Of a stretch of 64,000 bases of DNA, positions 1-64,000 are shown in pieces (positions within the stretch are counted from its first letter, which is position 1; each line of letters begins with the position of its first letter). The DNA comes from an uncultured Eubacteriales bacterium. Lineage in GTDB: Bacteria; Bacillota; Clostridia; Lachnospirales; Lachnospiraceae. The position numbers and the translations under genes are program-made. The DNA is taken from positions 1 through 64,000 of the forward strand of contig ONHA01000019.1 of the NCBI GenBank assembly GCA_900317515.1, given 5' to 3'. The notes beneath the pieces are model-generated. The model saw only the letters and a program-made list of their open reading frames with translations, ran no database searches and was not told where the DNA came from.

Positions 1-182
1 GGATGCGCCTCGCCGTCTAAGAGCATCTCCACGTCGCCCTTCAGGAAGAAATAGAATTCATAGTAGTTGTGGGAGTGGATCTTTACATTTTTAAAATGAA
101 GATCGCTGTAATAGTAGAGCTCGTAATTCTCACTGAGCATGTACTGGCGGGACTGGAAATCGGAGCGGATATTTTTCTTCAT
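1..182 (-). CDS. AraC-family transcriptional regulator, N-terminal fragment
   Basis: Only the first 60 codons are in the window; the gene runs off the left edge on the minus strand. The visible peptide (MKKNIRSDF, then a YYYSDLHF and IHSHNYYEFYFFLKG stretch) matches the cupin-like sugar-sensing arm of AraC/XylS regulators: a histidine-rich beta strand followed by an EFYFFLKG strand. The C-terminal helix-turn-helix region is outside the window. It is divergent from uxuA, so it is the natural candidate to control the uronate genes. A ribosome binding site AGGTGTCCC-like stretch precedes the ATG at 182. The family call rests on the sensor half only. Confidence 0.75.
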   Translation of the reverse strand, partial: MKKNIRSDFQSRQYMLSENYELYYYSDLHFKNVKIHSHNYYEFYFFLKGDVEMLLDGEAH

Positions 183-282
183 GGGACACCTCTTTTGCTT
201 TGTATTTTCAGTATAGTCCGGCAGCGCAAGATTTGCAATATACTTCGCAAACTGCACAATATGATTTTTTCATGCAAACGTG

Positions 283-323
283 TATACTTTGTTTCAGAAC
301 ATGAATGAAGCGATAAGGCTTCA
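283..323 (+). promoter_or_regulatory. uxuA promoter -10 box and 5'-UTR inverted repeat
   Basis: TATACT at 283-288 is a good -10 box upstream of uxuA; no clear -35 is seen. Downstream lies an inverted repeat, TGAAGC at 306-311 and GCTTCA at 318-323, placed about where a repressor would sit in the leader. Upstream, TTGCAATAT and TGCACAATAT near 230-262 resemble a pair of direct repeats as AraC proteins use. No regulator can be assigned from sequence alone. Confidence 0.4.
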
Positions 324-348
324 CGCAAATAAAAGGAGGACACAACTT

Positions 349-1422
349 ATGGAAATGACACTTCGCTGGTACGGTTCAAAATTCGACACGGTCACGCTTG
401 AGCAGATCCGCCAGATCCCGGGCGTCACGGGCGTCATCACGACCCTGTACGACACGACACCGGGCGAGGTCTGGAGCCGCGAGCGCATCCGCGCCCTGAA
501 GGACGAAGTCGCCGCGGCCGGCATGCACATCGCCGGCATCGAGTCCGTCAACGTCTCCGACGCGATCAAGATCGGAAATGAAGACCGCGACCGCGATATC
601 GAAAACTACATCGAGACCTTGAGGAACCTCGGCGAGGAAGATATCCATCTTGTCTGCTACAACTTCATGCCGGTCTTTGACTGGACCCGCACGGAGCTGG
701 CCAGAAAGCGCCCGGACGGCTCCACCGTTCTCGCCTACACCCAGGCAGCGGTCGACGCGATCAATCCGGCCCAGATGTTCGAGTCCATTTCCGGCGATAT
801 GAACGGCACGGTCATGCCTGGCTGGGAGCCGGAGCGCATGGCAAAGGTCAAGGAGCTCTTCGAGATGTACAAGGATGTCGACGAGGAGAAGCTTTTTGAG
901 AATCTCGTCTATTTCCTGAAGAAGATCATGCCGGTCTGCAACGAGTACGATATCAAGATGGCAATCCATCCGGACGATCCCGCATGGCCGGTCTTCGGAC
1001 TTCCGCGCATCATCACCAGCAAGGAGAAGATCCACCGCCTCATGAACGCGGTCGACGATGTCCACAACGGCGTCACCTTCTGCTCGGGCTCCTACGGCAC
1101 GAACCGCAAGAATGACCTGCCGGAGATGATCCGCTCCTTAAAGGGCCGCATCCACTTCGCGCATGTCCGCAACCTCTACTTCCACTCGGACGACAACTTC
1201 GAGGAGGCTGCTCACCTCTCGAGCGACGGCTCCTTCGACATGTATGAGATCGTCAAGGCCCTCTATGACATCGGCTTTGACGGCCCGATCCGTCCGGACC
1301 ACGGCCGCATGATCTGGGGCGAAGTCGCTATGCCGGGCTACGGCCTCTACGACAGAGCGCTCGGCGCCGCCTACATCAACGGTCTCTGGGAAGCCATCGA
1401 GAAAAATGCAAAGCGCGCATAA
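349..1422 (+). CDS. uxuA: Mannonate dehydratase
   Basis: UxuA removes water from D-mannonate to give 2-keto-3-deoxygluconate (KDG) in the cytoplasmic glucuronate pathway. The 357-residue product has the family length seen in Firmicutes and starts with the typical MEMTLRWYG block. It carries the TIM-barrel landmarks HPDDPAWPVFGLPRI and the metal-site region FCSGSYGTN, and ends with the RPDHGRMIWGE block. The start at 349 is chosen because AAAGGAGGA lies 8 bases upstream; an in-frame ATG at 280 overlaps the -10 box and has no binding site. uxuB follows after 14 bases. Product function is certain at family level. Confidence 0.96.
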   Translation: MEMTLRWYGSKFDTVTLEQIRQIPGVTGVITTLYDTTPGEVWSRERIRALKDEVAAAGMHIAGIESVNVSDAIKIGNEDRDRDIENYIETLRNLGEEDIHLVCYNFMPVFDWTRTELARKRPDGSTVLAYTQAAVDAINPAQMFESISGDMNGTVMPGWEPERMAKVKELFEMYKDVDEEKLFENLVYFLKKIMPVCNEYDIKMAIHPDDPAWPVFGLPRIITSKEKIHRLMNAVDDVHNGVTFCSGSYGTNRKNDLPEMIRSLKGRIHFAHVRNLYFHSDDNFEEAAHLSSDGSFDMYEIVKALYDIGFDGPIRPDHGRMIWGEVAMPGYGLYDRALGAAYINGLWEAIEKNAKRA

Positions 1423-1436
1423 GGAGGACCTGAAAA

Positions 1437-2970
1437 ATGAAATTATCCGCTGAAAGCTTAAAAGATAAGGCCGCATGGGAGGAGAAAGGCTATCGTCTTC
1501 CGCAGTTTGACAGGGAGGCAGTCGCGAAGGCGACGCACGAGGCACCGGAGTGGGTGCATTTCGGAGCCGGCAACATTTTCCGTGCTTTCCAGGCCAACGT
1601 CCTCCAGAACATCCTGAACGCAGGCGAGTACGACAAGGGCCTCATCGCGGTCGAGGGCTTTGACCACGAGATCGTCGAGAAGGCCTACCGGGCAAACGAC
1701 AACCTCTCCCTGCTCGTCACTTTAAAGAGCGACGGCAGCATCGAGAAGACGGTTGTCGGCTCCATCGTCGAGACCTGCATCCTCGATCCGAATTTTGAAG
1801 ATGAGTTCGGCCGCTTAAAGGAGATCTTCCGCGCTCCGTCCCTCAAGATGGGCAGCTTCACGATCACCGAGAAGGGCTACAGCCTCGTGAACGGCAAGGG
1901 AGAGCAGCTCCCGGCAGTCACCGCGGACTTTGCAAACGGCCCGGCCGCTCCGGCCAGCTACCTCGGCAAGGTCTTCGCGCTCCTCTATGAGCGCTACCTC
2001 GCAGGTGCATACCCGATCGCGATGGTCTCCATGGACAACTGCTCCCACAACGGCGACCGCCTCTTTGCGGCAGCGGATGCCTACGCGAAGGAGTGGGCGA
2101 AGAACGGCCTCGTCGATGAAGGCTTTGTCGCCTATATCGAGGATCCGAAGAAAGTCTCCTTCCCGTGGAGCATGATCGACAAGATCACCCCGAGACCGGA
2201 CGCCTCCGTCGAGGCGATCCTCCGCGAGGACGGCTTTGAGGGACTCGATCCGATCGTCACGACCCGCGGCACTCATGTTGCCCCGTTTGTCAACTCCGAG
2301 GAGAGCGAATATCTGGTCATCGAGGACTCCTTCCCGAACGGCCGTGTCCCGCTCGATAAGGGCGGCATCATCTACACGGACCGCGAGACGGTCGACAAGG
2401 TCGAGACCATGAAGGTCTGCACCTGCCTGAATCCGCTCCATACCTCTCTGGCGGTCTTCGGCTGCATCCTGGGCTACGACAAGATCTCCGCGGAGATGAA
2501 GGATCCGGAGCTCAAGAAGCTGGTCGATATCGTCGGCTACACGGAAGGCCTGCCGGTCGTCGTGAACCCGGGCGTCATCGACCCGAAGGAGTTCATCGAC
2601 ACGGTCTTAAATGTCCGTATCCCGAACCCGTTCATGCCGGACACACCGCAGCGCATCGCGACCGACACATCCCAGAAGCTGGCGATCCGCTTCGGCGGCA
2701 CGATCAAAAAATATGCGGCTTCCGAGACGCTTTCGGTCTCCGACCTTAAGTTCATCCCGCTGGTTCTGGCCGGTTGGTGCCGCTACCTCATGGCGGTCGA
2801 CGATGAGGGCAATGCCTTCACCTTAGCTCCTTCCGCTCCTTAAGGACGCGAAGATCTTCGGGGTGGACCTTGAGGAGGTCGGTCTTGCGGATACGGTCGC
2901 TTCCTATTTCGCGGAGCTCATCGCCGGAAAGGGCGCAGTCAGAGCGACACTGAAGAAATATCTCGCCTGA
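1437..2970 (+). pseudogene. uxuB: Fructuronate reductase, frameshifted and internally deleted near the 3' end
   Basis: Mannitol-dehydrogenase-family fructuronate reductase interconverts D-fructuronate and D-mannonate with NAD(H), one step before UxuA. The Rossmann start (VHFGAGNIFRAFQ, about residues 36-48) and the catalytic-domain block KVCTCLNPLHT are intact. The first frame stops at TAA 2841-2843 after VDDEGNAFTLAPSAP. The conserved C-terminal part (LKDAKIFGVDLEEVGLADTV to VRATLKKYLA) continues in the +1 frame from about 2839 to TGA 2970. A stop at 2824-2826 in that frame limits the shift to 2827-2841. The joined length, about 510 codons, is roughly 30 short of the family, so a small deletion accompanies the shift. 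GCTCCTT occurs twice at the junction. Confidence 0.8.
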
Positions 2971-4999: not shown

Positions 5000-7435
5000 T
5001 TATCTGATAACTGCGATTACTTCATTTTCTGTGCCCGCGGCCTGCGGCGGAATGATATTCCCGTCAATCTTCTCGCCGTTCAGGGTGATCTCGACTGCAC
5101 CGCTCTCAAGGTGATTCGGATTCTCAACCCTGATGTTGTAGGCAGCGCCGCGGAAGACGCGCCTTACGTTGAAGCCGTCCCACTCCGACGGGATGCAGGG
5201 GCGAAGCATGAGGCCGCCGAAATCCGGGTAGATGCCCAGGATGTACTGGGAGGCGTTCACGAACGTCCAGGATGCGGTGCCGGTCAGCCAGCTGTTCTTG
5301 CCCTCACCGAAATGGGCGGCATCGCGGCCGGCCACCATCTGGCAGTATGCGTAGGGCTCGGTGCGGTGAATGTCCATCTTGTCCTCAAGGAAGGACGGGG
5401 TGATGCGGGTGTAGAGGCTGTAAGCCCGGTTTCCGTGGCCCATCTCTGTCTCGGCGATCGAGACCCAGGGGTTGTTGTGGCAGAAGATACCGCCGTTCTC
5501 CTTGTATCCGGGCGGATAGGAGGAGACTTCACCGAGATTCAGGTGGTACTCCTTGTAGGTGGGCGTAAGGATCATGATGCCGTACTCGGTCTCGAGGAGC
5601 TTTGCGGTGGAGTCGAGAGCCTTCTGGGCCTCGCCGGTCTCCTTGCCGATGCCGGCCATGACGCAGAAGCCCTGGGGCTCGATGTAGATCTGGCCGTCCT
5701 TGCACTCGTGGGAGCCGACCTTCTCGGAGTTCGCGTCGTAGGCGCGGAGGAACCATTCTCCGTCCCAGCCGTCCGTGAGGACTGCCTTCTCCATGAGGGC
5801 GACTTCCTGTAAGGCGGCCTCGGCTTCGGCGGTCATGCCTTTCAGCCTGAGGATCTCCGCATACTCGCGGCCGTATTTGACGAACATGCCGGCGATGAAG
5901 ACGGATTCCGCGACCGGACCCTCGGACGGACCGGTGGTCTGGAACGGCTCGCCCGGCTCGTCGGAGAAGCAGTTCAGGTTCAGGCAGTCATTCCAGTCGG
6001 CGCGGCCGATGAGCGGCAGGCCGTGGGGACCCTTGTGCTCGACCGTGTAGCGGAAGGAGCGGGTCAGATGCTCGAGAAGAGGAGCTGCCAGGCTCTCGTC
6101 GTTGTCGAACGGCGTCATCTCGTCGAGGATACTGATATCGCCGGTCTCGCGGATGTAGGCGGAAACGCCTGCGATCAGCCAGAGCGGGTCGTCATTGAAG
6201 CCGGAGCCGATGTCCATGTTGCCGCGCTTCGTGAGCGGCTGGTACTGATGGTAGGCCGAGCCGTCCGGGAACTGGGTCGCGGCGATGTCAAGCAGTCTCT
6301 GGCGGGCTTTCTCAGGGACAAGATGCACAAAGCCGAAGAGGTCCTGGCTGGAATCGCGGAAGCCCATGCCGCGGCCGATGCCGGATTCGTAGTAGGATGC
6401 GGATCTCGACATATTGAAGGTGACCATGCACTGGTACTGGTGCCAGATGTTGACCATGCGGGTGAAGCGGTCCTCCGGTGTTGAGACAGTGAAAGTCGAG
6501 AGCAGGCCGTCCCAGTGGTCCTTGAGGGCCTTGAGCGCGGCATCGACCTTCTCGTCCGTCGCATAGCGGGCGGTCATCGCACGGGCCGGAGCCTTGTTCA
6601 CGATGCCCGGGGCTTCCCATTTTTCTTCTTTCTTATTCTCGATGTAGCCCAGAAGGAAAATGAAGCTCTTTTCCTCGCCCGGCGCAAATGTGAGATCGAA
6701 CTCGTGGGAGGCGATCGGCGACCAGCCGGAGGCCTTCGTGCAGTTAAGCTTCCCGTTCACAACGGCTTCCGGAGCTTCCGGTCCGCCGTAGACGCCGAGG
6801 AACTCGTCGCGGCTGGTCTCAAATGCATCCGGCTTCGCATTGACATGGAAGATCGCGTAGTGCTTGCGTCTCTCGCGGTACTCGGTCTTGTGGTAGATCG
6901 TCGCTCCGTCGATCTCCACCTCGCCGGTGGAGTAGTTGCGCTGGAAGTTGGTCATGTCGTCCATCGCGTTCCAGAGGCAGAATTCCACGTAGGAGAAGAG
7001 CTTGAGGCTGCGCTCCTTCGTGTCTTCATTTTTAAGGCGAAGGCGAAGGACCTCGCAGGTGTCCCCGATCGGGACGAAGGCGGTGACTTCGGCGGAGATG
7101 TTGTTCTTCTTGCCGTTTATCACGGTGTAGCCGAGGCCGTGGCGGCAGGAGTAGGAATCAAGCGGCGTCTTTGTCGGCTGCCAGCCCGGATTCCAGATCG
7201 TATCGCCGTCCTTGATATAGAAGTAATGGCCGTTGGAATCCTTCGGGGTGTTGTTGTAGCGGAAACGGGTCAGGCGGAGGAGCTTCGCATCCTTATAGAA
7301 GCTGTAGCCGCCGCCGGTGTTGGAGATCAGGGTGAAGAATTCCTCACACCCCAGATAGTTGATCCAGGGAAGCGGAGTCTTTGGAGTGGTGATGACGTAT
7401 TCTTTTGCCTTGTCGTCAAAATAACCGTATTTCAT
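5000..7435 (-). CDS. Cellobiose phosphorylase (GH94)
   Basis: It phosphorolyses intracellular cellobiose to alpha-glucose 1-phosphate and glucose, saving one ATP. The 811-residue protein tracks the known Clostridium thermocellum cellobiose phosphorylase from end to end as I remember it. It starts [14 protein letters not shown], then [21 protein letters not shown], and [18 protein letters not shown]. The catalytic acid lies in [11 protein letters not shown], and [14 protein letters not shown] follows. The start at 7435 has AAAGGAGC 7 bases upstream; 39 upstream in-frame codons cross the operator region. The gene is divergent from a LacI regulator and next to an ABC importer, which fits cellobiose uptake and cleavage. 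Confidence 0.95.
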
Positions 7436-8834: not shown

Positions 8835-8863
8835 TTTTATAATTTTTATGGAGGGACAAACAA

Positions 8864-10273
8864 ATGAAGAGAAAATGGCTCGCATTAGGACTTTCGGCAG
8901 TTATGGTTTCCGGCCTGGCAGCATGCGGCGGCGGCGCTGCTTCTTCCACGGCTCCGGCAGCTGAGAGCACAAAGGCAGAGAGCACAGCACCGGCAGCTGA
9001 GAGCACCAAGGCTGAGTCCACAGCCGCAGCTGAGGGCACGACTTCCACTCTGAACATCTATTGCTGGAACGAGGAGTTCAAGACCCGTCTTGAAGACCAC
9101 TATCCGGGATATGAGAAGATCGACGCCACACACGGCAAGATCGGCGATGTCGCTGTCAACTTCAACATCACCCCGAACACCGACAACGCTTACCAGAACA
9201 ACCTTGATGAGACGCTCCTCAACATGGACAGCGCTGCTGCTGACAGCAAGATCGATATGTTCCTGGTCGAGGCTGACTACGCTCTTAAGTATGTCGACAC
9301 CGATTACACGATGAATGTCAAGGATCTCGGCATCACGGACGAGGATATCTCCAAGCAGTACAAGTACACACAGGATATCGTTACCGACTCCAACGGCAAC
9401 CTTAAGGGCCTTTCCTGGCAGGGCTGCCCGGGCGTCCTCATCTACAACCGCGAAGCTGCCAAGGAAGTCTTCGGCTCCGATGATCCGGCAACTGTTCAGG
9501 AATATGTCAAGGATTGGGATACATTCGCAAAGACAGCTGACACTCTGAAGGAGAAAGGCTACAACATCCTCTCCTCCGTCAACGACAGCTACCGTGTATT
9601 CTCCAACAACGTCTCCGGCAAGTGGGTACAGGACGGCAAGATCGTCGTTGATCCGGCTCTTGTAAACTGGGTTGACAACTCCAAGGCACTTGTTGAGAAG
9701 GAAGAGACCGGCACACATGCTCTTTGGTCTGATGACTGGTCCAAGGGCTTCTATCCGGACGGCAAGGTATTCTGCTACTTTGGACCGGCATGGATGATCG
9801 ACTTCTCCATGGCTGCTGATACCGAAGGTTCCATCGCCAACGCCGGCGGCTGGGGCGCAACGGTTGGTCCGCAGGGCTTCTTCTGGGGCGGCACATGGAT
9901 CTGCGCAGCGAAGGATACCGACAATGCTGACCTTATCAAGGACATCATGCTGAAGCTTACCTGCGATGACGAGGTCATGAAGGAAATCGTCACGAAGGAC
10001 AACGACTTTGTCAACAACAAGCCGGTTATGGAAGCTATGGCTAAGGACGAGAGCTACGGCGACGCTGTCCTCGGCGGCCAGAACGCACTCGCTATGTTCT
10101 GCGAAGGCGCTGACAAGATCGACCTTTCCAACCTCTCCAACTACGACCAGGGCTGCAACGAGGAGTTCCAGAACGCCATGAAGAACTACTTCGAAGGCGG
10201 CATGAGCTACGAAGAAGCTCTGAACCTCTTCTACAAGGCAGTCGTCGAGAAGTATCCGGAACTTTCTTACTAA
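8864..10273 (+). CDS. Sugar ABC transporter substrate-binding lipoprotein (CUT1 type)
   Basis: This extracellular solute-binding protein captures sugar for the two permeases downstream. A lipoprotein signal peptide ends in GLAAC with Cys21 as lipid anchor. A low-complexity linker follows, rich in Ala/Glu/Ser/Thr, with the 11-residue unit PAAESTKAEST present twice (about residues 32-53). The rest is a MalE-like binding fold starting at TLNIYCWNEEFKTRL. It is 469 residues. The neighbouring cellobiose phosphorylase suggests cellobiose or cello-oligosaccharides as ligand (inference). A terminator-like hairpin separates it from the permeases, a common way to make binding protein in excess. Confidence 0.9.
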   Translation: MKRKWLALGLSAVMVSGLAACGGGAASSTAPAAESTKAESTAPAAESTKAESTAAAEGTTSTLNIYCWNEEFKTRLEDHYPGYEKIDATHGKIGDVAVNFNITPNTDNAYQNNLDETLLNMDSAAADSKIDMFLVEADYALKYVDTDYTMNVKDLGITDEDISKQYKYTQDIVTDSNGNLKGLSWQGCPGVLIYNREAAKEVFGSDDPATVQEYVKDWDTFAKTADTLKEKGYNILSSVNDSYRVFSNNVSGKWVQDGKIVVDPALVNWVDNSKALVEKEETGTHALWSDDWSKGFYPDGKVFCYFGPAWMIDFSMAADTEGSIANAGGWGATVGPQGFFWGGTWICAAKDTDNADLIKDIMLKLTCDDEVMKEIVTKDNDFVNNKPVMEAMAKDESYGDAVLGGQNALAMFCEGADKIDLSNLSNYDQGCNEEFQNAMKNYFEGGMSYEEALNLFYKAVVEKYPELSY

Positions 10274-12161: not shown

Positions 12162-12178
12162 TGCTCATTTGCAAAATG

Positions 12179-12210
12179 AAAGGCTTCCTCATTGTGGGGA
12201 AGCCTTTTTT
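12179..12210 (+). terminator. Terminator of the sugar ABC operon
   Basis: AAAGGCTTCC and GGGAAGCCTT form a stem followed by a T-run. The same DNA carries TTGTGG (12192-12197), 17 bases, TATACT (12215-12220), a likely promoter for the next gene. Confidence 0.8.
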
Positions 12211-12249
12211 CTGCTATACTTGGCACATGTCGGACAAAGTGGAGGAAAA

Positions 12250-13976: not shown

Positions 13977-14024
13977 AAAAATGAAGGATGAGGCACTGCA
14001 TATTTTAAGGGAGGCGTGAAGGAT

Positions 14025-15360: not shown

Positions 15361-15478
15361 AGACTGTCCTCTCCTTATTATATAACTGGTTTGTATTTTC
15401 AGGATTATATCACAGATGCGCTCCGTGAGGGAGAAGGAAAATGAAAACCTCTCCCGCAAAAATATTTAATGATAAAAC

Positions 15479-15539: not shown

Positions 15540-15633
15540 CTAACGATGTTCGCGCCGGCAAACCGGGGCTTTTCATTTACGACTTGCGGAGGGCAGGCGA
15601 TTGGCACCGCCCTCAGGGGAAAGGAGGACCTGA
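15540..15633 (+). promoter_or_regulatory. Structured feoA leader
   Basis: The untranslated leader holds GCCGG-CAAA-CCGGGGC (about 15554-15569) and GAGGGC...GCCCTC (15589-15594 with 15609-15614), the latter ending 20 bases before the start codon and next to AAAGGAGGACC. The second hairpin has no U-run, so it more likely affects translation than termination. I could not match a known metal riboswitch. Confidence 0.35.
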
Positions 15634-18918: not shown

Positions 18919-18938
18919 AAAATGAAATAATGCCTGAA

Positions 18939-31156: not shown

Positions 31157-31173
31157 AAAATGAAAACCCACAA

Positions 31174-41784: not shown

Positions 41785-41838
41785 GGTTTCATTTTCAGAA
41801 GGAATCTGCTATAATGCCCGAAAAGGATGGTGAGAAAA

Positions 41839-45980: not shown

Positions 45981-46015
45981 GTCGGCAGGAGGGTTTCATT
46001 TCCTCTGAAAATAAA

Positions 46016-51634: not shown

Positions 51635-53273
51635 TGTATTTATCTATGATATCATTGATTTTCGGAAGGATCTGCTTCTTCCTGGAGAGGAGGTCCTGCT
51701 GGAAGGAGTGCTCTTCATTTTCCCTGTTCGGGAAGGCCTCCGGGATCCAGGCCGCGCGGTTCCCGCCGGCGTAGATGATGGAGCCGTTCTCCATGATGCT
51801 GGTGAAGACCAGGACCGAGAGGTCCAGACGTTTCTTGGCCGCGAAGCTCTCGACCGCCTGCTGGATCTCCTGATCGTCCTCACGGAGCGCCTTCGTGGAG
51901 GTGACGATCACCTGGGAGATCGCCAGCTTGCACTCCTTGATGTCGTAGATCTTCATATCCTGGTTGATCATCTCGGAGTAGGTCTTGCCGCTCGTGTTGG
52001 CGGTGACCGCGAACATGTCGCGGGCGAACTCCTCGATGTCGAGGTCGGCCATGGCTGCCAGGATGTTGGCGGTCTGGATGTCCTTCGGGGTCGTCGTCGG
52101 CGAGTGGAAATTCATCGTGTCGGAGAGCAGGGCGCCCAGGAGAAGCCCGGCGAGGTTCTGCGGGATCGGAATCTGGTTCTCGCGGAAGATCGTCGAGACG
52201 ATCGTGGCGGAGGAGCCGACGATTTCATTTCGGAAGGCGACCGGCTGGGTGGTCGAGAAGTCGTTGATCCGGTGGTGGTCGATGACCTCCAGCACGCGGG
52301 CCTTTTCGATCGCACGGACCGACTGGGAGAACTCATTGTGGTCCACCAGGATGATCTGCTTGTTCTTGCAGTTCATGATGTGGTAGCGCGCGACGTAGCC
52401 GACCAGCTTCCGCTCGGTGTTTATGACCGGGTAGATGTGGAAGCGGCTGCGGAGCATTTTCTTTCCGACATCCTCCGCGAGCTCGATGTCCGTGAAGGTT
52501 ACGATGCTGGTCTTCATGATCGTGGAGGCCGCCGGCGCAAAATAGATGTAGCGCGAGGTGTTCATGGCCCCGTGGCCGGAAATGATGATCGGGCAGTGAT
52601 GCGCCTTCGCAAGCTCAATCACATCCGGCTCCACCGAGTTCGCCCAGACGATGATGAGGAGGCCGGCGCCCCGCTCGATGGCGTGCCTCTGGGCGACCGA
52701 ATTGCTGCCCAGAATGACGATGCGGTCCTCGATCTGGTAGGCGTCGAGCTGGGCGATCTCCGCCATGGCGATCATGCTGACCTTGCCGTTCAGGTGCATT
52801 TCATCGTCCCGGTAGATGAGCTTCCCGCCCAGGGTCTTCACGAAGTTGTCGAGGGGCGTTTTCGATAAGATGTCGATGTTGTGGTGGGTGTCGCCGAGGC
52901 CGACCTGGGCGATGTCGCCCTTGGTCACGAGGCCCAAGAGGTGCATATCGTCGTCGACGACGCCGCAGTAGGTGTGACCCTGCTCCTCCATCTGCCGGAG
53001 GGACTCAAAGATGGTCGTGTCCGGCTTTATGTAGGTGGGCGGGTCGAGGGTGATGTCGGAAAGACGCACGCGCGCGTCGGTGAGCAGCATCGGCTCCTCA
53101 AAACCGAAGCGCTTAAGGAGCCAGGCGGATTCGGCATTTACGGATCCGAGCCGGCAGGGAATTGCGCGGATGCCCATGGATCTCTTGAAAAATGAATACG
53201 CGATCGCCGAAGCGATGGAGTCTGTATCCGGGTGCTGATGACCGGTGATATAGACGGGATCCTGTGAAGTCAT
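51630..53273 (-). CDS. CBS-domain family II inorganic pyrophosphatase
   Basis: This manganese-dependent pyrophosphatase hydrolyses PPi in the cytoplasm. The 547-residue protein starts with the DHH catalytic segment (TGHQHPDTDSIASAIAY). A regulatory insert follows: CBS (IKPDTTIFESLRQMEEQG), DRTGG-like (about residues 125-245) and a second CBS (about 250-300). The DHH domain then resumes with VDHNEFSQS and VIDHHRIND, and a DHHA2 domain ends it. Such enzymes are inhibited by AMP/ADP and activated by ATP or diadenosine polyphosphates. ATG 53273 has AGAAAGG 8 bases upstream; ATG 53279 is too close to it. Confidence 0.95.
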   Translation of the reverse strand: MTSQDPVYITGHQHPDTDSIASAIAYSFFKRSMGIRAIPCRLGSVNAESAWLLKRFGFEEPMLLTDARVRLSDITLDPPTYIKPDTTIFESLRQMEEQGHTYCGVVDDDMHLLGLVTKGDIAQVGLGDTHHNIDILSKTPLDNFVKTLGGKLIYRDDEMHLNGKVSMIAMAEIAQLDAYQIEDRIVILGSNSVAQRHAIERGAGLLIIVWANSVEPDVIELAKAHHCPIIISGHGAMNTSRYIYFAPAASTIMKTSIVTFTDIELAEDVGKKMLRSRFHIYPVINTERKLVGYVARYHIMNCKNKQIILVDHNEFSQSVRAIEKARVLEVIDHHRINDFSTTQPVAFRNEIVGSSATIVSTIFRENQIPIPQNLAGLLLGALLSDTMNFHSPTTTPKDIQTANILAAMADLDIEEFARDMFAVTANTSGKTYSEMINQDMKIYDIKECKLAISQVIVTSTKALREDDQEIQQAVESFAAKKRLDLSVLVFTSIMENGSIIYAGGNRAAWIPEAFPNRENEEHSFQQDLLSRKKQILPKINDIIDKYM

Positions 53274-54524: not shown

Positions 54525-56399
54525 GTGCTGGAAAGAACAGAAGGACCTTTGGATATAAAAAATATGTCGGACGAAGAGCTCGACAAGCTGGCTGCGGAGA
54601 TCCGGACATTTCTGGTTGACAAAATCAGCAAAACCGGCGGCCATCTGGCCTCCAACTTGGGGGCCGTGGAGCTCACGATCGCACTCTTTAAGGCGTTTGA
54701 TTTTCCGCGGGACAAGGTAGTATGGGATGTCGGACATCAGTCCTACACCCACAAGATCCTGAGCGGGAGAAAGGACGGCTTTGAAGGGCTTCGGAAGTAC
54801 GGCGGCATGAGCGGATTTCCGAAGCACAAGGAGAGTCCCTACGATGTGTTTGACACAGGGCACAGCTCGACGTCCATATCGGCGGGGCTGGGACTCGTGC
54901 AGGCGAGAGACCTCCTTAAGGAGGACTACAAGGTCATCTCGGTGATCGGCGACGGGGCGCTCACGGGCGGCATGGCCTATGAGGCGCTCAACAACGCAGG
55001 GGACCGGAAGACGAATTTCATTATTATTTTAAATGACAACACCATGTCAATTGCGCCGAATGTCGGCGGCATGTCCACGTACTTAAATGAACTTCGGGCA
55101 GCGGAGGGCTACAACCGGCTGAAGCGGAACGTGGCGGACCGGCTCGAGAGGATGCCGGTCGTGGGCAAGCCCGTCTCAAACGGGCTCATCCGCGCGAAAA
55201 GCTTCCTGAAGCAGATCTTTGTGCCGGGCGGCATGCTCTTTGAGGACATGGGCGTCACATACCTGGGACCCGTGGACGGGCACGACATCAGGAAGCTGAC
55301 CCGCATCCTGGAGGAGGCCAAGACCATAGAACGGTCGGTGCTCATCCATGTGATCACGAAGAAAGGCAAGGGCTACGCGCCCGCGGAGGCCAATCCGGAG
55401 GCATTCCACGGGATCGGAAAGTTTGATGTCAAGACGGGCAGGCCGGTCGGCGAGGCGAAAGGCCCCAGCTACACGAAGGTCTTTTCCGATGAGATCGTAA
55501 AAATTGCGGCGGAGGATTCAAAGGTTGTGGCGGTCACTGCGGCAATGCCGGACGGAACGGGCCTCAAGGCGTTTGAAAAGACCTACCCGGATCGTTTCTT
55601 TGATGTCGGAATCGCGGAACAGCACGCGGTGACCTCGGCGGCCGGCATGGCCGCGGGCGGCCTGCACCCGGTGGTGGCGGTCTACTCCTCCTTCCTGCAG
55701 CGCGGTTTCGACCAGATCCTGATGGATGTATGTCTTCAGAACCTTCCGGTCGTATTCGCGGTGGACAGGGCCGGCCTTGTCGGGGCGGACGGAGAGACGC
55801 ATCAGGGCATTTTCGACCTGACCTACCTCACGGCCATCCCGAACATGACCGTTATGGCCCCGAAGAATGCGGATGAGCTTCGGAGTATGCTTCGGTTTGC
55901 ATTTTCCCTGAATGCGCCCGTGGCGGTGCGCTACCCGCGCGGCGTCGCCTACGACGGTCTCACGGAGTTTCACGCCCCGATCGAGTACGGGAAGGCCGAG
56001 ATGCTCTATGAGGAGTGCGAGGTTGCGCTCTATGCGGTCGGCAGTATGGTCAGCACGGCGGAGCATATCCGGACCAAGCTGAAAATGAAAGGCATCCCCT
56101 GCACGCTGGTCAACGGCAGGTTTGTCAAGCCGGTCGACCTTGACATGGTGGACCGCCTTGCGGAGAATCATAAGCTTCTCATCACGCTGGAGGAGAACAT
56201 CTCCCGCGGCGGCTTCGGCGAGCGGGTCACCGATCATGTATCCAAAAACTATCCGGAGCTTAAGGTGATGAACATCACGCTTCCGGATGCGTATGTGGAG
56301 CACGGGGATGTCTCCATCCTCAGGAATGTGCTTGGAATCGACAGCGATGCCTGCCTTATTAAGATCGAGGAAGCGCTTAAAGACTGCGGACTTGCATGA
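54525..56399 (+). CDS. dxs: 1-deoxy-D-xylulose-5-phosphate synthase
   Basis: DXS condenses pyruvate and glyceraldehyde 3-phosphate, the first step of the MEP isoprenoid pathway, using thiamine diphosphate. The 624-residue protein has HLASNLGAVELTIALF, WDVGHQSYTHK, the TPP/Mg motif GDGALTGGMAYEALNN, and the transketolase-like second domain with FDVGIAEQHAVTSAAGMA and DRAGLVGADGETHQG. The start codon is GTG at 54525 with AGAGGTGTGA upstream. A small GGGC/GCCC hairpin lies in the leader. A PurF-like gene follows 33 bases later. Confidence 0.96.
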   Translation: MLERTEGPLDIKNMSDEELDKLAAEIRTFLVDKISKTGGHLASNLGAVELTIALFKAFDFPRDKVVWDVGHQSYTHKILSGRKDGFEGLRKYGGMSGFPKHKESPYDVFDTGHSSTSISAGLGLVQARDLLKEDYKVISVIGDGALTGGMAYEALNNAGDRKTNFIIILNDNTMSIAPNVGGMSTYLNELRAAEGYNRLKRNVADRLERMPVVGKPVSNGLIRAKSFLKQIFVPGGMLFEDMGVTYLGPVDGHDIRKLTRILEEAKTIERSVLIHVITKKGKGYAPAEANPEAFHGIGKFDVKTGRPVGEAKGPSYTKVFSDEIVKIAAEDSKVVAVTAAMPDGTGLKAFEKTYPDRFFDVGIAEQHAVTSAAGMAAGGLHPVVAVYSSFLQRGFDQILMDVCLQNLPVVFAVDRAGLVGADGETHQGIFDLTYLTAIPNMTVMAPKNADELRSMLRFAFSLNAPVAVRYPRGVAYDGLTEFHAPIEYGKAEMLYEECEVALYAVGSMVSTAEHIRTKLKMKGIPCTLVNGRFVKPVDLDMVDRLAENHKLLITLEENISRGGFGERVTDHVSKNYPELKVMNITLPDAYVEHGDVSILRNVLGIDSDACLIKIEEALKDCGLA

Positions 56400-56432: not shown

Positions 56433-57848
56433 ATGGGCGGATTTTTTGCTACTGCACTCAAGGAAGACTGCGTATTTGACCTGTTTTTCGGGACAGACTA
56501 TCACTCTCATCTGGGAACCAGAAGAGCCGGCATGGTCGTGTTCGGAAAAGACGGCATGAACCGGGCGATTCACAATATCGAGAACAGCCCCTTCCGCACC
56601 AAATTCGGATCCGAGGTAAATGAAATGCACGGCAATCTCGGGATCGGGTGCATTTCGGACTACGAGCCCCAGCCCCTCATCGTGCGTTCCCACCACGGGA
56701 CGTACGCGATCACGACCGTTGGCCGGATCAACAACAAGGATGAGCTGACGGAGAAGGTCATGGCGAGGCGCGGGGTTCATTTTCAGGAGATGAGCAGCGG
56801 CGAGATCAACGCGACCGAGCTCGTGGCCGCTCTTATCAACGAGAAGGACAACCTGATCGACGGAATCCGGTTCGCCCAGGAGGCGATCGAAGGGTCCATG
56901 ACCTTCCTTCTCATGAATCATCAGGGTATCTACTGTGCGCGCGACCGTCTGGGAAGAACGCCCCTCGTCATCGGGCGGAAGGAGACGGGCTTCTGCGCAT
57001 CGTTTGAATCATTTGCGTACTTAAACATCGGCTATCGGGATTACAAGGAGCTCGGACCCGGCGAGGTCTGCCTCATGACGCCGGAGGGCGTGCATGTGCT
57101 GGCGGAGCCCGGAAAGAAAATGAGGATCTGCACATTCCTCTGGGTCTACTACGGCTACCCGACCTCCGCCTACGAGGGGGTCTCCGTCGAGGCCATGCGC
57201 TGCCGCTGCGGCCAAAACCTCGCAAAGCGGGATCAGATGACGAAGGACGATATCGACAACGTCGCGGGCGTTCCGGACTCTGGCACCGCGCATGCGATCG
57301 GCTACGCGAACGAGTCGGGTGTACCGTTCTCGAGGCCGTTTATCAAATATACGCCGACCTGGCCGCGCTCCTTCATGCCGACGATCCAGTCCAAGCGCGA
57401 TCTGATCGCGAAAATGAAGCTGATCCCGGTCCACGAGCTGATCGACGGCAGGAGACTCCTGCTCATCGACGACTCGATCGTCCGCGGGACCCAGCTTAGG
57501 GAGACGACGGAGTTCCTCTACCAGAGCGGCGCGAAGGAAGTTCACGTTCGCCCGGCCTGCCCGCCGATCCTCTTCGGCTGCAAATACATCGGGTTCTCCC
57601 GCTCGACTTCGGATATGGAGCTGATCGGCCGGCGCATCATTCAGGAGCTTGAGGGCGGCGAGGTCGACCGCGCGATCCTTGATGATTACGCGAATCCGGA
57701 TTCGGACCGCTACCACATGATGCTGGAGAAGATGCGGGAGCGCATGAATTTTACAACGCTTCGCTTCAACCGGCTGGATGACCTGATCGACGCGACGGGA
57801 ATCAGCAGAGACAGGCTCTGCACCTACTGCTGGGACGGAAAGGAATAA
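56433..57848 (+). CDS. PurF-like amidophosphoribosyltransferase without the N-terminal Cys nucleophile
   Basis: The 471-residue protein has the two-domain layout of PurF, which makes phosphoribosylamine from PRPP and ammonia released from glutamine. The N-terminal glutaminase-like domain contains HSHLGTRRAG, HGNLGIG, GEINATELVAA and CARDRLGRTPL. The phosphoribosyltransferase domain has the PRPP loop LLLIDDSIVRGTQLRE and GVPDSGTAHAIGYA. The chain begins MGGFFATALKEDC, with Gly where the catalytic Cys of MCGIFG should be. Cys13 is too far along to replace it by alignment. GGAG precedes ATG. It may use free ammonia or have another role. Confidence 0.82.
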   Translation: MGGFFATALKEDCVFDLFFGTDYHSHLGTRRAGMVVFGKDGMNRAIHNIENSPFRTKFGSEVNEMHGNLGIGCISDYEPQPLIVRSHHGTYAITTVGRINNKDELTEKVMARRGVHFQEMSSGEINATELVAALINEKDNLIDGIRFAQEAIEGSMTFLLMNHQGIYCARDRLGRTPLVIGRKETGFCASFESFAYLNIGYRDYKELGPGEVCLMTPEGVHVLAEPGKKMRICTFLWVYYGYPTSAYEGVSVEAMRCRCGQNLAKRDQMTKDDIDNVAGVPDSGTAHAIGYANESGVPFSRPFIKYTPTWPRSFMPTIQSKRDLIAKMKLIPVHELIDGRRLLLIDDSIVRGTQLRETTEFLYQSGAKEVHVRPACPPILFGCKYIGFSRSTSDMELIGRRIIQELEGGEVDRAILDDYANPDSDRYHMMLEKMRERMNFTTLRFNRLDDLIDATGISRDRLCTYCWDGKE

Positions 57849-60398: not shown

Positions 60399-60557
60399 GG
60401 GTGATGCCTCCTTTTATTTGAAAAATCATTCTACCTTTACTGTAAACGAAATTTGGGAAAAATACAATATAAAGGTTTATTTTTGTTTTAAAAAATGGTA
60501 TGATTTTCACAATAACCGGTATATGCCGGAAATATATGAAAGGCGGGATCACGGAAA

Positions 60558-61316
60558 ATGAAAAAGGTATTTGCCAGCGATTTCGACGGGACGCTCTATT
60601 TTTACAAAGCGGAAGTGAAGCTTCCCCCGGAATCGGTTGAGAAAATCAAGGAGTATCAGGCGGCGGGCAACTATTTCGGCCTCTGCACCGGACGGCAGGT
60701 CGGCGGACTGACCCCGTTCATCACGGGACATTTCGTTCCGGACTTTATGATCACCAGCACGGGATCGAATATCGTCGACCGTGACATGAAGGGGATCCGC
60801 AAGCTCTTCATCGACCGGGATGTGATCGATAAGATCGTCAAGGATGTGAAGCCGCGCGGGAACCGCATTTCCATCGATATCGACGGCGTGATCAACGTCT
60901 TCGAGGAGATGGACTATCCGGGTGAGTACAACGTTATCACAGGCATGGATGATGCGCCCGAGGGCCTGGTCCACGGCGTCGGCATCCACTGCGAGACGCT
61001 GGAGGAGGCTGCAGCCCTCACAAAGGAGATCAACGACAAGTACGGAGAGTACCTGAACGCGTTCCAGAACGTCATCGAGGTCGACATCGCGCCGAAGGGA
61101 ACCTCGAAGGGCGAGGCGGTCTCGGTCATCCGCGACTACTACGGCGACTGCAAGGTGTACGGCATCGGGGACTCCCTGAATGACCTTCCGCTCCTTGAGG
61201 CCGCGGATGTCTCCTACACGTTCCCGTATGCACCGCCCGAAGTGCAGGCCAAAGTCACAAAGGTTGTGGAAAATATCTGCGAAGCACTTGAAGATTCCAT
61301 GCAGGATAAGGTATAA
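60558..61316 (+). CDS. HAD-superfamily phosphatase (Cof type, IIB)
   Basis: The 252-residue protein has HAD motif I FASDFDGTLYF, motif II GLCTGRQVGG, and motif IV VYGIGDSLNDLPLL, with a IIB cap. Related enzymes dephosphorylate sugar phosphates. Flanked by two GH32 genes, fructose or sucrose phosphates are possible substrates (inference). The start codon lies within a GGAAAATGAA motif copy, with AAAGGCGGG as binding site. A terminator follows before the next GH32 gene. Confidence 0.87.
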   Translation: MKKVFASDFDGTLYFYKAEVKLPPESVEKIKEYQAAGNYFGLCTGRQVGGLTPFITGHFVPDFMITSTGSNIVDRDMKGIRKLFIDRDVIDKIVKDVKPRGNRISIDIDGVINVFEEMDYPGEYNVITGMDDAPEGLVHGVGIHCETLEEAAALTKEINDKYGEYLNAFQNVIEVDIAPKGTSKGEAVSVIRDYYGDCKVYGIGDSLNDLPLLEAADVSYTFPYAPPEVQAKVTKVVENICEALEDSMQDKV

Positions 61317-61385: not shown

Positions 61386-62861
61386 ATGGCAAGCGAGAGA
61401 CTGAATAACGCCAGAAACTATGAACTGGACCGGGAGAAGGCGATAAAGCCGGAGGAGCGGCCTGGTTTTCATTTGTCAACGAGAGTTGGCTGGATGAACG
61501 ATCCGAACGGGTTTTCATTTTACAACGGACAGTACCACCTTTTCTACCAGTACCACCCCTATGATTCCCACTGGGGCCCGATGCACTGGGGACACGCGGT
61601 GAGCCGCGACCTCCTGCACTGGACCTATCTTCCCTGCGCGCTCGCGCCGGATGAGGACTACGACCGGGACGGGTGCTTTTCGGGGTGCGCGTTCACGGCG
61701 CCGGACGGGCGGCAGGCCCTCGTCTACACGGGGGTTGCGAGAAGAGAGGATGGGATGTTCCAGACTCAGTGTCTGGCATTCGGCGACGGCGTGGATTATG
61801 AGAAGGTGGGAGAGAATCCGGTGATCCCCTCCTGGAACCTGCCGGAGGGGGCGAGCGCCCGCGATTTCCGGGACCCGAAGATGTTCCTCGAGAAGGACGG
61901 CGTGTATCACCTCGCGGTCGCGGACTGGTACGGGGAGCACGGCGGGGCGATCCTCCATTACACGAGCCGCGACCTCTTTCACTGGGACTATGTATCGGTC
62001 ATTGCGGCAAATGACGACCGCATCGGCCGCATGTGGGAGTGCCCCGATCTCTTTGCCCTCGACGGAAAATGGATCTTCATGGCCAGCGCCACGGACATGC
62101 TGCCGAAGGGGCTCGAGTACTACAGCGGCAACGGAAATTTCTACATGGTCGGCGATTTTGACACGGAGAGCGGGATATTTTCCGGCGGCGAGGACCATGC
62201 GGTGGACTACGGGATCGACTACTACGCGATGCAGACGATCGAGGCTCCGGACGGCCGGCGGATCATGATCGGCTGGATGCAGAACTGGGATACCTGCAAC
62301 TTCCGGACGGCCTCCGTGCCGTGGTTCGGGCAGATGGCGCTTCCGCGAGAGCTCTTCCTGAAGGACGGGAAGCTTTATCAGCGGCCGGTTCGGGAGCTTG
62401 ACGCGCTTCGGACGGACGAGGTCAGCTGCAGGAATATTCCGGTCGAAAACGGCGAGATCGAGATCCCCGGGATCAACGGCAGGCTGCTCGACATGGAGGT
62501 CGAGGTCGAGGCGCTGGATCCGGAGGACATCTATCGGAAATTCTCGGTGCGCTTTGCGAAAAATGAGAGGTTCCAGACGGGCGTGAGCTACCGCCCGCAT
62601 GAGGAGACGCTCAAGGCGGACCGGAAGCACTCCGGGTCCCGCCGGGCGATCATGCACCAGAGGCGCGCTCATGTCCCGCATGTGAACGGTCGGATCAGCC
62701 TCCGGATCATTCTCGACCGGTTCAGCGTCGAGGTCTTCGTGAACGGCGGTGAGAAGGTGATGACCATGACGCTCGAGACCGAGACGTCGGCCGACCGCGT
62801 CTCGTTCTACTGCGACGGGCGCGCGAGGGTGTCGGTCAGGCGGTATCGGGTCGACGTGTGA
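61386..62861 (+). CDS. GH32 beta-fructofuranosidase
   Basis: This 491-residue GH32 enzyme has the canonical nucleophile motif WMNDPNGF (Asp39), SARDFRDPKM and MWECPDLF, plus the C-terminal beta-sandwich (RFSVEVFVNGGEKVMT). It has no signal peptide. It differs clearly from the other GH32 here, so the two probably split substrates such as sucrose and fructo-oligosaccharides. AAGGAGAG lies about 11 bases before the ATG. The gene ends just before a GGGGACGGTTCT repeat. Confidence 0.93.
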   Translation: MASERLNNARNYELDREKAIKPEERPGFHLSTRVGWMNDPNGFSFYNGQYHLFYQYHPYDSHWGPMHWGHAVSRDLLHWTYLPCALAPDEDYDRDGCFSGCAFTAPDGRQALVYTGVARREDGMFQTQCLAFGDGVDYEKVGENPVIPSWNLPEGASARDFRDPKMFLEKDGVYHLAVADWYGEHGGAILHYTSRDLFHWDYVSVIAANDDRIGRMWECPDLFALDGKWIFMASATDMLPKGLEYYSGNGNFYMVGDFDTESGIFSGGEDHAVDYGIDYYAMQTIEAPDGRRIMIGWMQNWDTCNFRTASVPWFGQMALPRELFLKDGKLYQRPVRELDALRTDEVSCRNIPVENGEIEIPGINGRLLDMEVEVEALDPEDIYRKFSVRFAKNERFQTGVSYRPHEETLKADRKHSGSRRAIMHQRRAHVPHVNGRISLRIILDRFSVEVFVNGGEKVMTMTLETETSADRVSFYCDGRARVSVRRYRVDV

Positions 62862-62870
62862 TAGACGTGA

Positions 62871-62925
62871 GGGGACGGTTCTTCGCGGCGGGGGACGGTT
62901 CTTCGCCGCGAAGAACCGTCCCTAT
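62871..62925. repeat. GGGGACGGTTCT repeat, two forward copies and one inverted
   Basis: GGGGACGGTTCTTCGCGGCG, then GGGGACGGTTCTTCG, then CGAAGAACCGTCCC: the second and third form a perfect hairpin (loop CCG). It lies directly after a stop codon like the other copies. Confidence 0.85.
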
Positions 62926-63003
62926 CTGCGACCAAATCCGTTGCCCTGCCATGAAATTCGTGCTAAAATATGCACAAACGGCACGGAAAGAGGGAGGCGC
63001 AAA

Positions 63004-63933
63004 ATGGTTAAAAAGACGACATTCTCGTTCTTATCGCATGACAGGCAGACGACGATCCACGGCAAAAAATGGGCCCCCGCCGACGGAAACTACAAGGCGG
63101 TTCTCCAGCTCGTCCACGGCATGGTTGAGTTCATCGACCGCTACGACAACTTCGCCAGGTACATGGCGGAACGGGGCTTTCTGGTCGTCGGTCACGACCA
63201 CCTGGGCCACGGCGCTTCCGTCCTCTCCGAGGAGGAGTGGGGCTACTTCGCCCCGAACCCGAGCGACACGGTCGTCGATGACATGAATACTGTCCGCCGC
63301 CACTACGAGGACAAGGACAAGCCTTATTTTATCCTCAGCCACAGCATGGGTTCCTACATGACCCTGAAGTATCTCTCGAAATACGGCGCAGGTCTTGCCG
63401 GCGCGGTCATCATGGGCACGGGCTATGTCCCGGAGGCTGCCGCGAGAGCCGGCCTTACCCTGGCGCGCGGCGAGGAGGCTGTCCGGGGAGGACATTACCG
63501 CAGCAAGACCATCCAGGGACTCGCGTTCGGCGAACCCTACAAGCGCTACGACATGACCGGGCAGGATGTCACGAACAGCTGGCTTACCAAGGATCCCGAG
63601 ATCGTCAAATTCTACTACGGCGAGCCCAGATGCCAGTTCATGTTCACGGTCAACGGCTACCAGGGCCTCTTTGAGGCGATCGTTGACTGCGAGAACAAGG
63701 ACAACATCGCCAACGTCCCGAAAGACCTTCCGATGCTCTTCGCATCCGGCTCGGACGACCCGGTCGGAAACATGGGAAAAGGCGTCGTGGAGATGAAAGA
63801 CCTCTACGAGAACAGCGGGATCAAGGACATCACCCTCCGGCTCTACGAGGGAGACCGCCATGAGATCCTGAACGAGACCGACCGCGATGTGGTCTACGCC
63901 GAGATCGCGGAGTGGATCGAGAAATATATCTGA
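63004..63933 (+). CDS. Alpha/beta hydrolase, monoacylglycerol-lipase/lysophospholipase type
   Basis: This 309-residue serine hydrolase of the S33/hydrolase_4 family has the oxyanion region LVHGMVEFIDRY, VVGHDHLGHGAS, and the nucleophile elbow LSHSMGSYMT (Ser replaces the first Gly of GxSxG). The catalytic Asp lies in SGSDDPVGN and His in EGDRHEIL. Likely substrates are lysolipids or monoacylglycerols. ATG 63004 follows GAGGGAGGCGC; 21 upstream in-frame codons have no binding site. The next gene starts 42 bases after the stop. Confidence 0.9.
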   Translation: MVKKTTFSFLSHDRQTTIHGKKWAPADGNYKAVLQLVHGMVEFIDRYDNFARYMAERGFLVVGHDHLGHGASVLSEEEWGYFAPNPSDTVVDDMNTVRRHYEDKDKPYFILSHSMGSYMTLKYLSKYGAGLAGAVIMGTGYVPEAAARAGLTLARGEEAVRGGHYRSKTIQGLAFGEPYKRYDMTGQDVTNSWLTKDPEIVKFYYGEPRCQFMFTVNGYQGLFEAIVDCENKDNIANVPKDLPMLFASGSDDPVGNMGKGVVEMKDLYENSGIKDITLRLYEGDRHEILNETDRDVVYAEIAEWIEKYI

Positions 63934-63975
63934 TCTGAAAATGAAACCCTGAAAAAACGCGAAAGGAATCAATCG

Positions 63976-64000
63976 ATGAGCACGAATCCCGAAATCATAA
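63976..64000 (+). CDS. Start of a further gene, cut by the window edge
   Basis: ATG at 63976 follows AAAGGAATC and opens MSTNPEII before the window ends. Too little is present to name it; the spacing suggests an operon with the hydrolase. Confidence 0.45.

Follow-up and report, generated by a model that had tools for sequence, protein, structure and literature searches.

A possible uptake-like self tag: the over-represented AAATGAA word of a Lachnospiraceae genome and its variants within one genus

The stretch of DNA analysed here (the window) comprises positions 1 to 64,000 of the 75,893-bp contig ONHA01000019.1 of an uncultured Eubacteriales bacterium of the family Lachnospiraceae, whose draft genome (G000) consists of 2,719,492 bp in 79 contigs. 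The window, in which feoB and thrS are encoded, has a G+C content of 57.2 %, slightly lower than the 58 % estimated in a first-pass annotation of the same DNA, and is interspersed with the short word AAATGAA. Counting its reverse complement TTCATTT as well, there are 59 copies of this word (34 plus, 25 minus); the 8-mer AAAATGAA/TTCATTTT is found 39 times (25 plus, 14 minus). An order-2 Markov model predicts 7.7 and 2.1 copies, respectively, which corresponds to an approximately 8-fold and 18-fold excess, and the two words are the top 7-mer and the top 8-mer of the window by over-representation z. The composition-matched control words AAAGTAA and AATAGAA are not equally enriched and occur only three times and once. 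The first-pass annotation had counted about 52 and 34 copies, and all 36 of the 36 positions it listed correspond to real copies, within 14 bases; it was right about the excess, and the Markov expectations are higher than its chance values of 3 and less than 1. The over-representation is real and stronger than had been claimed. The copies of AAATGAA, located by word counts (with gene calls for those spanning a called start codon) or, where the sister species G032 of the same genus is named, by alignment, are as follows:

94..100, plus, AAATGAA copy
576..582, plus, AAATGAA copy
1435..1441, plus, AAATGAA copy, spans called start codon
4891..4897, plus, AAATGAA copy
5021..5027, minus, AAATGAA copy
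6658..6664, plus, AAATGAA copy
7025..7031, minus, AAATGAA copy
8862..8868, plus, AAATGAA copy
11640..11646, minus, AAATGAA copy
12174..12180, plus, AAATGAA copy
12248..12254, plus, AAATGAA copy, spans called start codon
12930..12936, plus, AAATGAA copy
13979..13985, plus, AAATGAA copy
15439..15445, plus, AAATGAA copy
15572..15578, minus, AAATGAA copy
16551..16557, plus, AAATGAA copy inside feoB
18920..18926, plus, AAATGAA copy
19802..19808, plus, AAATGAA copy, kept in G032, flanks differ
20692..20698, plus, AAATGAA copy, kept in G032, flanks differ
20985..20991, minus, AAATGAA copy, AAATGGA in G032
22603..22609, plus, AAATGAA copy, not present in G032
23606..23612, plus, AAATGAA copy, AAATAAA in G032
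27340..27346, minus, AAATGAA copy, kept in G032
29260..29266, minus, AAATGAA copy, kept in G032
30224..30230, minus, AAATGAA copy, kept in G032
31158..31164, plus, AAATGAA copy, kept in G032
31347..31353, minus, AAATGAA copy, kept in G032
32664..32670, plus, AAATGAA copy, kept in G032
33643..33649, minus, AAATGAA copy, kept in G032
33944..33950, minus, AAATGAA copy, not present in G032
34112..34118, plus, AAATGAA copy, kept in G032
36499..36505, plus, AAATGAA copy
37784..37790, minus, AAATGAA copy
38585..38591, plus, AAATGAA copy, intergenic
38616..38622, plus, AAATGAA copy, intergenic
38739..38745, minus, AAATGAA copy
39716..39722, plus, AAATGAA copy
41788..41794, minus, AAATGAA copy
42210..42216, minus, AAATGAA copy
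43913..43919, minus, AAATGAA copy
45995..46001, minus, AAATGAA copy
48080..48086, plus, AAATGAA copy inside thrS
48386..48392, plus, AAATGAA copy
48881..48887, minus, AAATGAA copy
50047..50053, plus, AAATGAA copy, facing pair with 50063
50063..50069, minus, AAATGAA copy, facing pair with 50047
50558..50564, minus, AAATGAA copy
51714..51720, minus, AAATGAA copy
52224..52230, minus, AAATGAA copy
53190..53196, plus, AAATGAA copy
55085..55091, plus, AAATGAA copy
56083..56089, plus, AAATGAA copy
56618..56624, plus, AAATGAA copy
56776..56782, minus, AAATGAA copy
57412..57418, plus, AAATGAA copy
60556..60562, plus, AAATGAA copy, spans called start codon
61468..61474, minus, AAATGAA copy
61514..61520, minus, AAATGAA copy
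63939..63945, plus, AAATGAA copy

The excess is a property of the whole genome, in which AAAATGAA is present 717 + 676 = 1,393 times, compared to 30 + 27 = 57 times for the reversed word. Codon effects and spacing were analysed in 356 kb of G000, which comprise 14 contigs including the window and 307 called genes with a coverage of 90 %; genes were called using a simple script, which recovered 37 of 39 annotated stops in a test with Escherichia coli. This sample contains 202 copies of AAAATGAA, 77 of which lie in sense and 65 in antisense orientation within genes, 46 are intergenic, 12 cross a gene edge and two are located in a junction. When synonymous codons were shuffled within each gene, thereby keeping the protein and the codon usage, 15.7 genic copies were expected over 60 shuffles, with a maximum of 23, whereas 142 were observed, and the excess was present in both orientations (sense 77 versus 11.4, antisense 65 versus 4.3). 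A second null model, which was pooled over genes and additionally kept the dinucleotides at codon junctions, predicted 10.1 sense and 6.6 antisense copies. The 46 intergenic copies likewise exceed the 6.3 (order 2) or 10.3 (order 3) expected for the same 356 kb. An unprejudiced search of all words placed the AAATGAA type at the top of the both-strand coding words of lengths 7 and 8 under both null models, and AAATG ranks first among the 512 both-strand coding 5-mers of G000. The same procedure applied to 200 kb of E. coli K-12 gave a best 8-mer z of 4.5 versus 15.7 in G000 (165 and about 178 kb of coding sequence), and AAATGAA is not enriched in E. coli K-12 (14 and 6 copies versus 18.0 and 10.2 expected). 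Since the excess goes beyond what codon-preserving shuffles produce, the signal lies in the DNA and not in the codons, as the first-pass annotation had proposed for the genome as a whole. The two outcomes that the first pass had named as refuting, similar counts under a codon-preserving null (run on the 356 kb) and equal enrichment of control words, did not occur. A codon or start-codon artefact is ruled out by the within-gene and junction-preserving shuffles, even though a small number of copies lie across a start codon. The related AT-rich words AAAATAAA and AAAATGCA are likewise in excess in G000, possibly as versions of a single degenerate site.

When 461 copies of AAATG(A/C)A were aligned, the consensus GGAAAATG(A/C)A(A/G)ACC was obtained, with flank preferences that fade beyond approximately three bases to the left and six bases to the right of the core. 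The consensus is not palindromic, the alignment of AAAATGAA copies being asymmetric. Within genes, all reading frames that avoid a stop codon are used (60 and 17 copies in sense, 27, 24 and 14 in antisense orientation). The proposed lack of strand polarity was confirmed in the nine of the 14 contigs in which one strand carries more than 70 % of the coding bases: the four core words together have 139 copies on this gene-rich strand, which served as a proxy for the leading strand, and 132 on the other. In the 356 kb, the spacing of the copies is slightly even, with a coefficient of variation of 0.884 compared to 0.99 for random placement (95 % interval 0.90-1.10), and none of the 68 bins of 5 kb is empty (expectation 0.27). 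The longest motif-free gap measures 4,350 bp (chance median 5,476 bp, 95 % interval 4,105-7,895 bp); no desert of the kind that a mobile element might leave is longer than chance in these 356 kb. The longest motif-free stretch, L046:15650-20000, is located at the end of the stretch that was read; it contains genes for a TnpV protein, a helix-turn-helix regulator and an MFS transporter as well as second polysaccharide genes, and is perhaps an acquired element, the length of the gap being within chance.

Between genes, the density of copies is lowest in convergent regions (5 copies, 0.95/kb) and higher in tandem (27 copies, 1.53/kb) and divergent regions (26 copies, 2.32/kb). The tandem copies are distributed over both orientations (12 sense, 15 antisense), and 14 of 16 copies at gene edges are located at the 5-prime edge in sense orientation. 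It had been noted in the first pass that many copies lie between a stop codon and its terminator; this preference is not borne out, because convergent regions are the poorest in copies, and a role in termination or as inverted pairs was rejected for the same reason. Adjacent pairs 28-32 bp apart were found 11 times for the four core words in the 356 kb, and counts of all pairs show a mild excess at 20-29 bp (10) and 30-39 bp (13) over the approximately six expected. One pair of copies sits in a near-identical stretch on contigs C30 and C43. Neighbouring copies of the core words were oppositely oriented in 218 of 381 cases, compared to 190.5 expected for random orientation (14 contigs, 356 kb).

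Conservation of the sites was analysed in G032, whose threonyl-tRNA synthetase is 97 and 96 % identical to that of G000 in two pieces. The alignment comprises approximately 31 kb in pieces with 77-93 % identity at the DNA level. Of the AAATGAA sites in G000, 17 of 31 are identical in G032, in comparison to 572 of 1,758 AT-rich 7-mers (p 0.012). In the opposite direction, 17 of 24 sites of G032 are identical in G000, which exceeds both AT-rich 7-mers (572 of 1,622, p 0.0008) and permuted words (58 of 163, p 0.0015); in a smaller, earlier set of alignments, 11 of 16 copies were kept. Turnover is high, as 14 of the 31 G000 sites are changed in G032. The copies are held above background at orthologous positions, with many differing by a few substitutions.

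Related loci are found in metagenome-assembled genomes of Lachnospiraceae, Clostridia or Clostridiales, many of which originate from the rumen or the ruminant gut; the genus may correspond to Aristaeella of GTDB. In all 36 of 36 other genomes of the genus that were scanned, AAAATGAA is more frequent than the reversed word, with ratios between approximately 1.8 (G006) and 28 (G032); however, counts of AAAATGAA by themselves are a poor measure, as they are raised by start codons. Codon-null tests were run on AAATG in 15 of the 41 genomes of the genus, with loci containing at least 10 % N being dropped, which left too little of G009 and no more than 18 to 54 kb of coding sequence per genome in G018, G034, G035 and G002; G036, G005, G033, G012 and G022 are among the genomes outside this sample. 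The ratio of observed to expected AAATG is highest in G016 (2.14), followed by G032 (1.96), G000 (1.87), G023 (1.70), G014 (1.63), G015 (1.60), G034 (1.51), G026 (1.29) and G035 (1.28), and ranges from 1.21 to 1.13 in G025, G021, G020, G018 and G002. In G027, which is a single contig of 3.27 Mb, AAATG reaches 0.97 of the codon-null expectation, despite a AAAATGAA ratio of 3.8; only the 7-mer AAATGCA is raised in this genome (28 and 27 versus 9 and 13, rank 12). AAATG is the top both-strand coding 5-mer of 512 in five of the 15 genomes (G000, G032, G016, G014, G023), and the best 7-mer contains AAATG in seven, namely these five, G015 and G026. Words containing CCGG (TCCGGA, GCCGGC, ACCGGT) are moderately in excess on both strands of the coding sequence in G027, G021, G018 and G020, the species with weak or no AAATG enrichment, and also occur in several other species.

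Around the common core, the flanks differ between species, with GGA-AAATG-MAA and CGM-AAATG-CC being contrasting types. In G000, G032 and G016, the core is preceded by GGA and followed by (A/C)A, whereas in G023 it is preceded by CG(A/C) and followed by CC. G014 has CGA in front of the core and no preference for A at position +6, G015 has (G/T)GA before and (C/A)C after the core, and in G026 the flanks are GG(G/A) and AA. At position +6, A is found 415 times versus 119 expected in G000, while G023 has C in 132 cases versus 46 expected and A in 21 versus 30; at position -3, G or T prevails in G000 and C in G023 and G014. Relatedness was read from the identity of the threonyl-tRNA synthetase to that of G000 only; this enzyme is a poor marker, because G026, G014, G002 and G021 gave only a distant form (37-39 %).

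In its anatomy, the motif matches a DNA uptake word: it is asymmetric, non-polar, slightly evenly spaced, placed where the code tolerates it, held with turnover and split into dialects. We propose that AAATGAA is part of an uptake-like self tag, to which we assign a probability of roughly 0.5 on the basis of these sequence patterns. The first pass had raised an uptake word, a recombination or protein-binding site and a remnant of a mutational process as options. Of these, an uptake-like tag fits best, given that the flanks differ around one core between species and that uptake sequences are evenly spaced as well; a pure mutational remnant is less likely, since orthologous copies are kept above AT-rich words and the flanks differ between species. 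According to this proposal, AAATGAA would form the core of a non-palindromic recognition sequence of 11-14 bp, GGAAAATG(A/C)A(A/G)ACC in this species, which would mark the own chromosome approximately once per one to two kilobases. A receptor would read the word in either orientation and thereby favour the import, and thus the recombination, of DNA carrying it. Biased import together with homologous recombination could then spread and maintain copies wherever the protein code tolerates them, a form of molecular drive. Drift of the receptor would change the flanks between species while the core stays, resulting in dialects and partial isolation. Both the existence of such a receptor and the selection of the word by DNA import are inferred here.

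Haemophilus influenzae carries about 1,470 copies of its uptake signal sequence (USS) in 1.83 Mb. The 1,393 copies of AAAATGAA in the 2.72 Mb of G000 represent a density of the same order, and the even spacing is also shared, uptake sequences being significantly evenly spaced (PMC1939737, excerpt). In contrast to the USS of the Pasteurellaceae, however, the word is a different one, and the type IV pilus machinery through which USS uptake runs (PMC12616744, excerpt) was not found in G000. The DNA uptake sequences (DUS) of the Neisseriaceae, which together with the Pasteurellaceae are named as bacteria with DNA uptake words (PMC1939737, PMC7811141, excerpts), form dialects with a shared core and changing, clade-specific flanks (PMC3630211, excerpt), and atypically low uptake-word content has been used to mark mobile elements in this family (PMC7371117, excerpt). 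The AAATGAA word resembles DUS in its hundreds to thousands of non-palindromic copies and in its conserved core with flanks varying by species. It differs from DUS in its core, which is AAATG instead of CTG, in its clostridial host, in the location of most G000 copies within genes (142 of 202), and in the lack of an N-methyl pilin or a recognisable type IV pilus ATPase in G000. The word is not claimed to belong to the DUS or USS, a label hinted at in the first pass, because the type IV pilus of the known systems was looked for and not found in G000. A third comparison is offered by Liberibacter crescens and Micrococcus luteus, in which Tad pili and ComEC support transformation without type IVa pili (PMC8513845, excerpt). 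G000 likewise encodes a CpaF-like ATPase, a TadB-like protein and ComEC; however, no uptake word is mentioned for those systems in the excerpt of that source, and the Tad locus of G000 looks partial in the 7 kb that were read.

The com genes that such a tag would call for were found in G000, which encodes ComEC, a ComEA-like HHH protein and DprA, with the genes for the ComEA-like protein and ComEC located within 5 kb. Across the genus, ComEC was found in all genomes except G003, G005, G023 and G024 (37 of 41), DprA in 39 of 41 and HHH_3 matches in 38 of 41, with a short ComEA-sized frame in 37 of 41 (not in G008, G023, G031 and G062); the longer HHH_3-matching proteins are presumably Tex. G000 has one good T2SSE match, which was read as CpaF from its length, its score and the TadB-like neighbour, as Pfam does not separate the types. 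The corresponding locus (L261:2130-7001 on contig C54) encodes the CpaF-like ATPase, a T2SSF protein (TadB-like) and a protein without Pfam match, followed by an AAA-ATPase-like/PD-(D/E)XK gene, which looks unrelated. The Tad locus looks partial or interrupted, because the latter gene directly follows the third one; TadC and a prepilin peptidase were likewise not recognised in these 7 kb, with no genome-wide search made. G032, G016, G014 and G009 have one CpaF-like match each. A Tad-type pilus is tentatively suggested as the uptake machine.

A number of results weigh against an uptake-like tag. No N-methyl pilin match and no T2SSE ATPase with the appearance of PilB or PilT were found in G000, which is 94 % complete (nine of the 41 genomes of the genus have an N-methyl pilin), and the genes called in the 7 kb of the Tad locus include no recognisable Flp or TadE, again without a genome-wide search. 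N-methyl pilins are present in G023, G015 and G026 and absent from G000, G032, G016, G014 and G009; motif and type IV pilus are thus not distributed together across the genus, and the type IV pilus was rejected as a reader for this reason. G023 has a strong dialect, yet neither ComEC nor an HHH_3 match (94 % complete); one assembly gap could hide both, because the genes for the ComEA-like protein and ComEC lie within 5 kb in G000. Conversely, G027 possesses ComEC, a ComEA-like protein, DprA and a CpaF-like ATPase, yet AAATG is not enriched. The even spacing is a mild effect, the longest gap does not exceed what chance allows, and the conservation from G000 to G032 is not significant when compared to permuted words (17 of 31 versus 58 of 153, p 0.11). 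In addition, no paper among the matches listed for the open-licence literature describes competence for this group. Long matches to a PilB-like ATPase, with E below 1e-119, were observed in seven of 41 genomes (G004, G015, G023, G026, G028, G029, G061), a fragment in G018, and none in the remaining genomes of the genus, G000 included; type IV pili seem to be gained and lost within the genus.

The alternative that survives best is a genome-wide site for a chromosome-organising, replication or repair protein, which would be non-directional, present about every kilobase and drifting in specificity between species. Such a site would equally explain a signal at the DNA level that is non-polar, slightly even, genic as well as intergenic and kept above AT-rich words, and the missing type IV pilus poses no problem, as no uptake machine is needed. 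However, the core is not enriched in G027 and weak in several congeners, which would be odd for a housekeeping function, and no candidate protein was identified. We know of no bacterial architectural protein with a specific site of this length approximately 500 times per Mb, and consider this explanation unlikely, though it deserves to be taken seriously.

Less probable still is a methylation-linked iterated word, created and kept by an orphan methyltransferase and a repair bias as in the HIP1 system of cyanobacteria. HIP words are very abundant octamers, which are replaced by alternates in some species (PMC4390886, excerpt), and five matches to the N6-methyltransferase family PF02384 are present in G000. 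HIP1 and its alternates are described as palindromes, tied to methyltransferases, whereas the AAATGAA word lacks such symmetry and shows no correspondence with the two methyltransferase families (PF02384 and PF01555) scanned in 16 genomes. In G009, G036, G015 and G023, which carry the motif by codon null or word count, neither PF02384 nor PF01555 was matched over the cut-off (G009, G036 and G015 being 71-82 % complete), and the most matches in total were found in G020 with its weak motif (16) and in G027, in which the core is not enriched (9), compared to 6 in G000. The motif is not associated with either of these two families in the 16 genomes, and a link to methylation is given little weight.

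A by-product of mutation or composition without any reader, for example a sequence-dependent mutation bias or a codon-pair preference, would account for the additional excess of AAAATAAA and AAAATGCA and for the high turnover between the sister species (14 of 31 sites changed). It is improbable given that the excess persists when amino acids, codon usage and, in the second null model, junction dinucleotides are preserved in the shuffles, that orthologous sites are kept above AT-rich words, and that the flanks differ sharply between congeners of similar G+C (G000 and G023).

The words recognised by RecBCD/AddAB (Chi) or FtsK (KOPS) are short, over-represented and species-specific, as is the AAATGAA word, and Chi sites are polar. 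The AAATGAA word is not polar by gene strand, and a polar signal was rejected on the counts of 139 versus 132. Moreover, the sense and antisense excesses in genes are similar (approximately 66 and 61 above the null), whereas Chi was found 44 times in sense and eight times in antisense orientation in the same E. coli test, though the codon null is skewed too (18.8 versus 3.4); a Chi-like or KOPS-like role is very improbable. A dispersed mobile element or an RNA-level signal such as a promoter, a terminator or a start context, to which the copies spanning start codons might point, is hardly credible, as the consensus ends by approximately 14 bp (for which a repeat or mobile element was rejected), most copies lie inside genes on both strands, tandem intergenic copies face both ways and convergent regions are the poorest. 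Even jointly, the last four explanations account for a minor share of the probability.

In addition to the AAATGAA word, a family of REP-like intergenic palindromes built on GGGGACGGTTCT/AGAACCGTCCCC was observed. In the window, these palindromes are located at the following positions:

13045-13069, REP-like palindrome
14448-14518, REP-like palindrome
34921-35018, REP-like palindrome
49316-49424, REP-like palindrome
58913-58921, REP-like palindrome
62872-62922, REP-like palindrome

The exact word AACCGTCCC occurs 16 times in the window versus 0.6 expected from shuffles, positions 49334-49424 hold a copy that forms a perfect inverted repeat of 44 nt, and AACCGTCC is found in 57 intergenic copies in the 356 kb, compared to 1.1-2.4 expected.

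To our knowledge, no uptake-sequence-type tag has been described in Bacillota before, and no report of such a word in Clostridia was found among the matches listed for the open-licence literature. We tentatively suggest, with the odds somewhat against the full combination, that the genus carries a self-recognition tag of the uptake type in Bacillota, the reader of which would be a Tad-type pilus, the ComEA-like protein or another receptor rather than a type IV pilus, and that at least three clearly distinct flank dialects around AAATG exist in this one genus, with dialect switches limiting gene exchange. If the word is an uptake tag, DNA carrying GGAAAATGAAAACC would be taken up in preference to DNA with a scrambled word. 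An independent case in a genus of the Clostridia would show that such tags have evolved more than once, perhaps even where their usual reader, the pilus, is missing. Species in which the tag is strong, altered or absent would form a natural series, in which the long-standing question of whether drive or a chromosomal need maintains the word would become testable. Should the uptake reading fail, an abundant recognition word without a known reader would remain, which would be at least as surprising. As a tag, it would point to natural gene exchange in bacteria of the ruminant gut, most of which are known here only as metagenome assemblies, and would offer a genetic handle on them.

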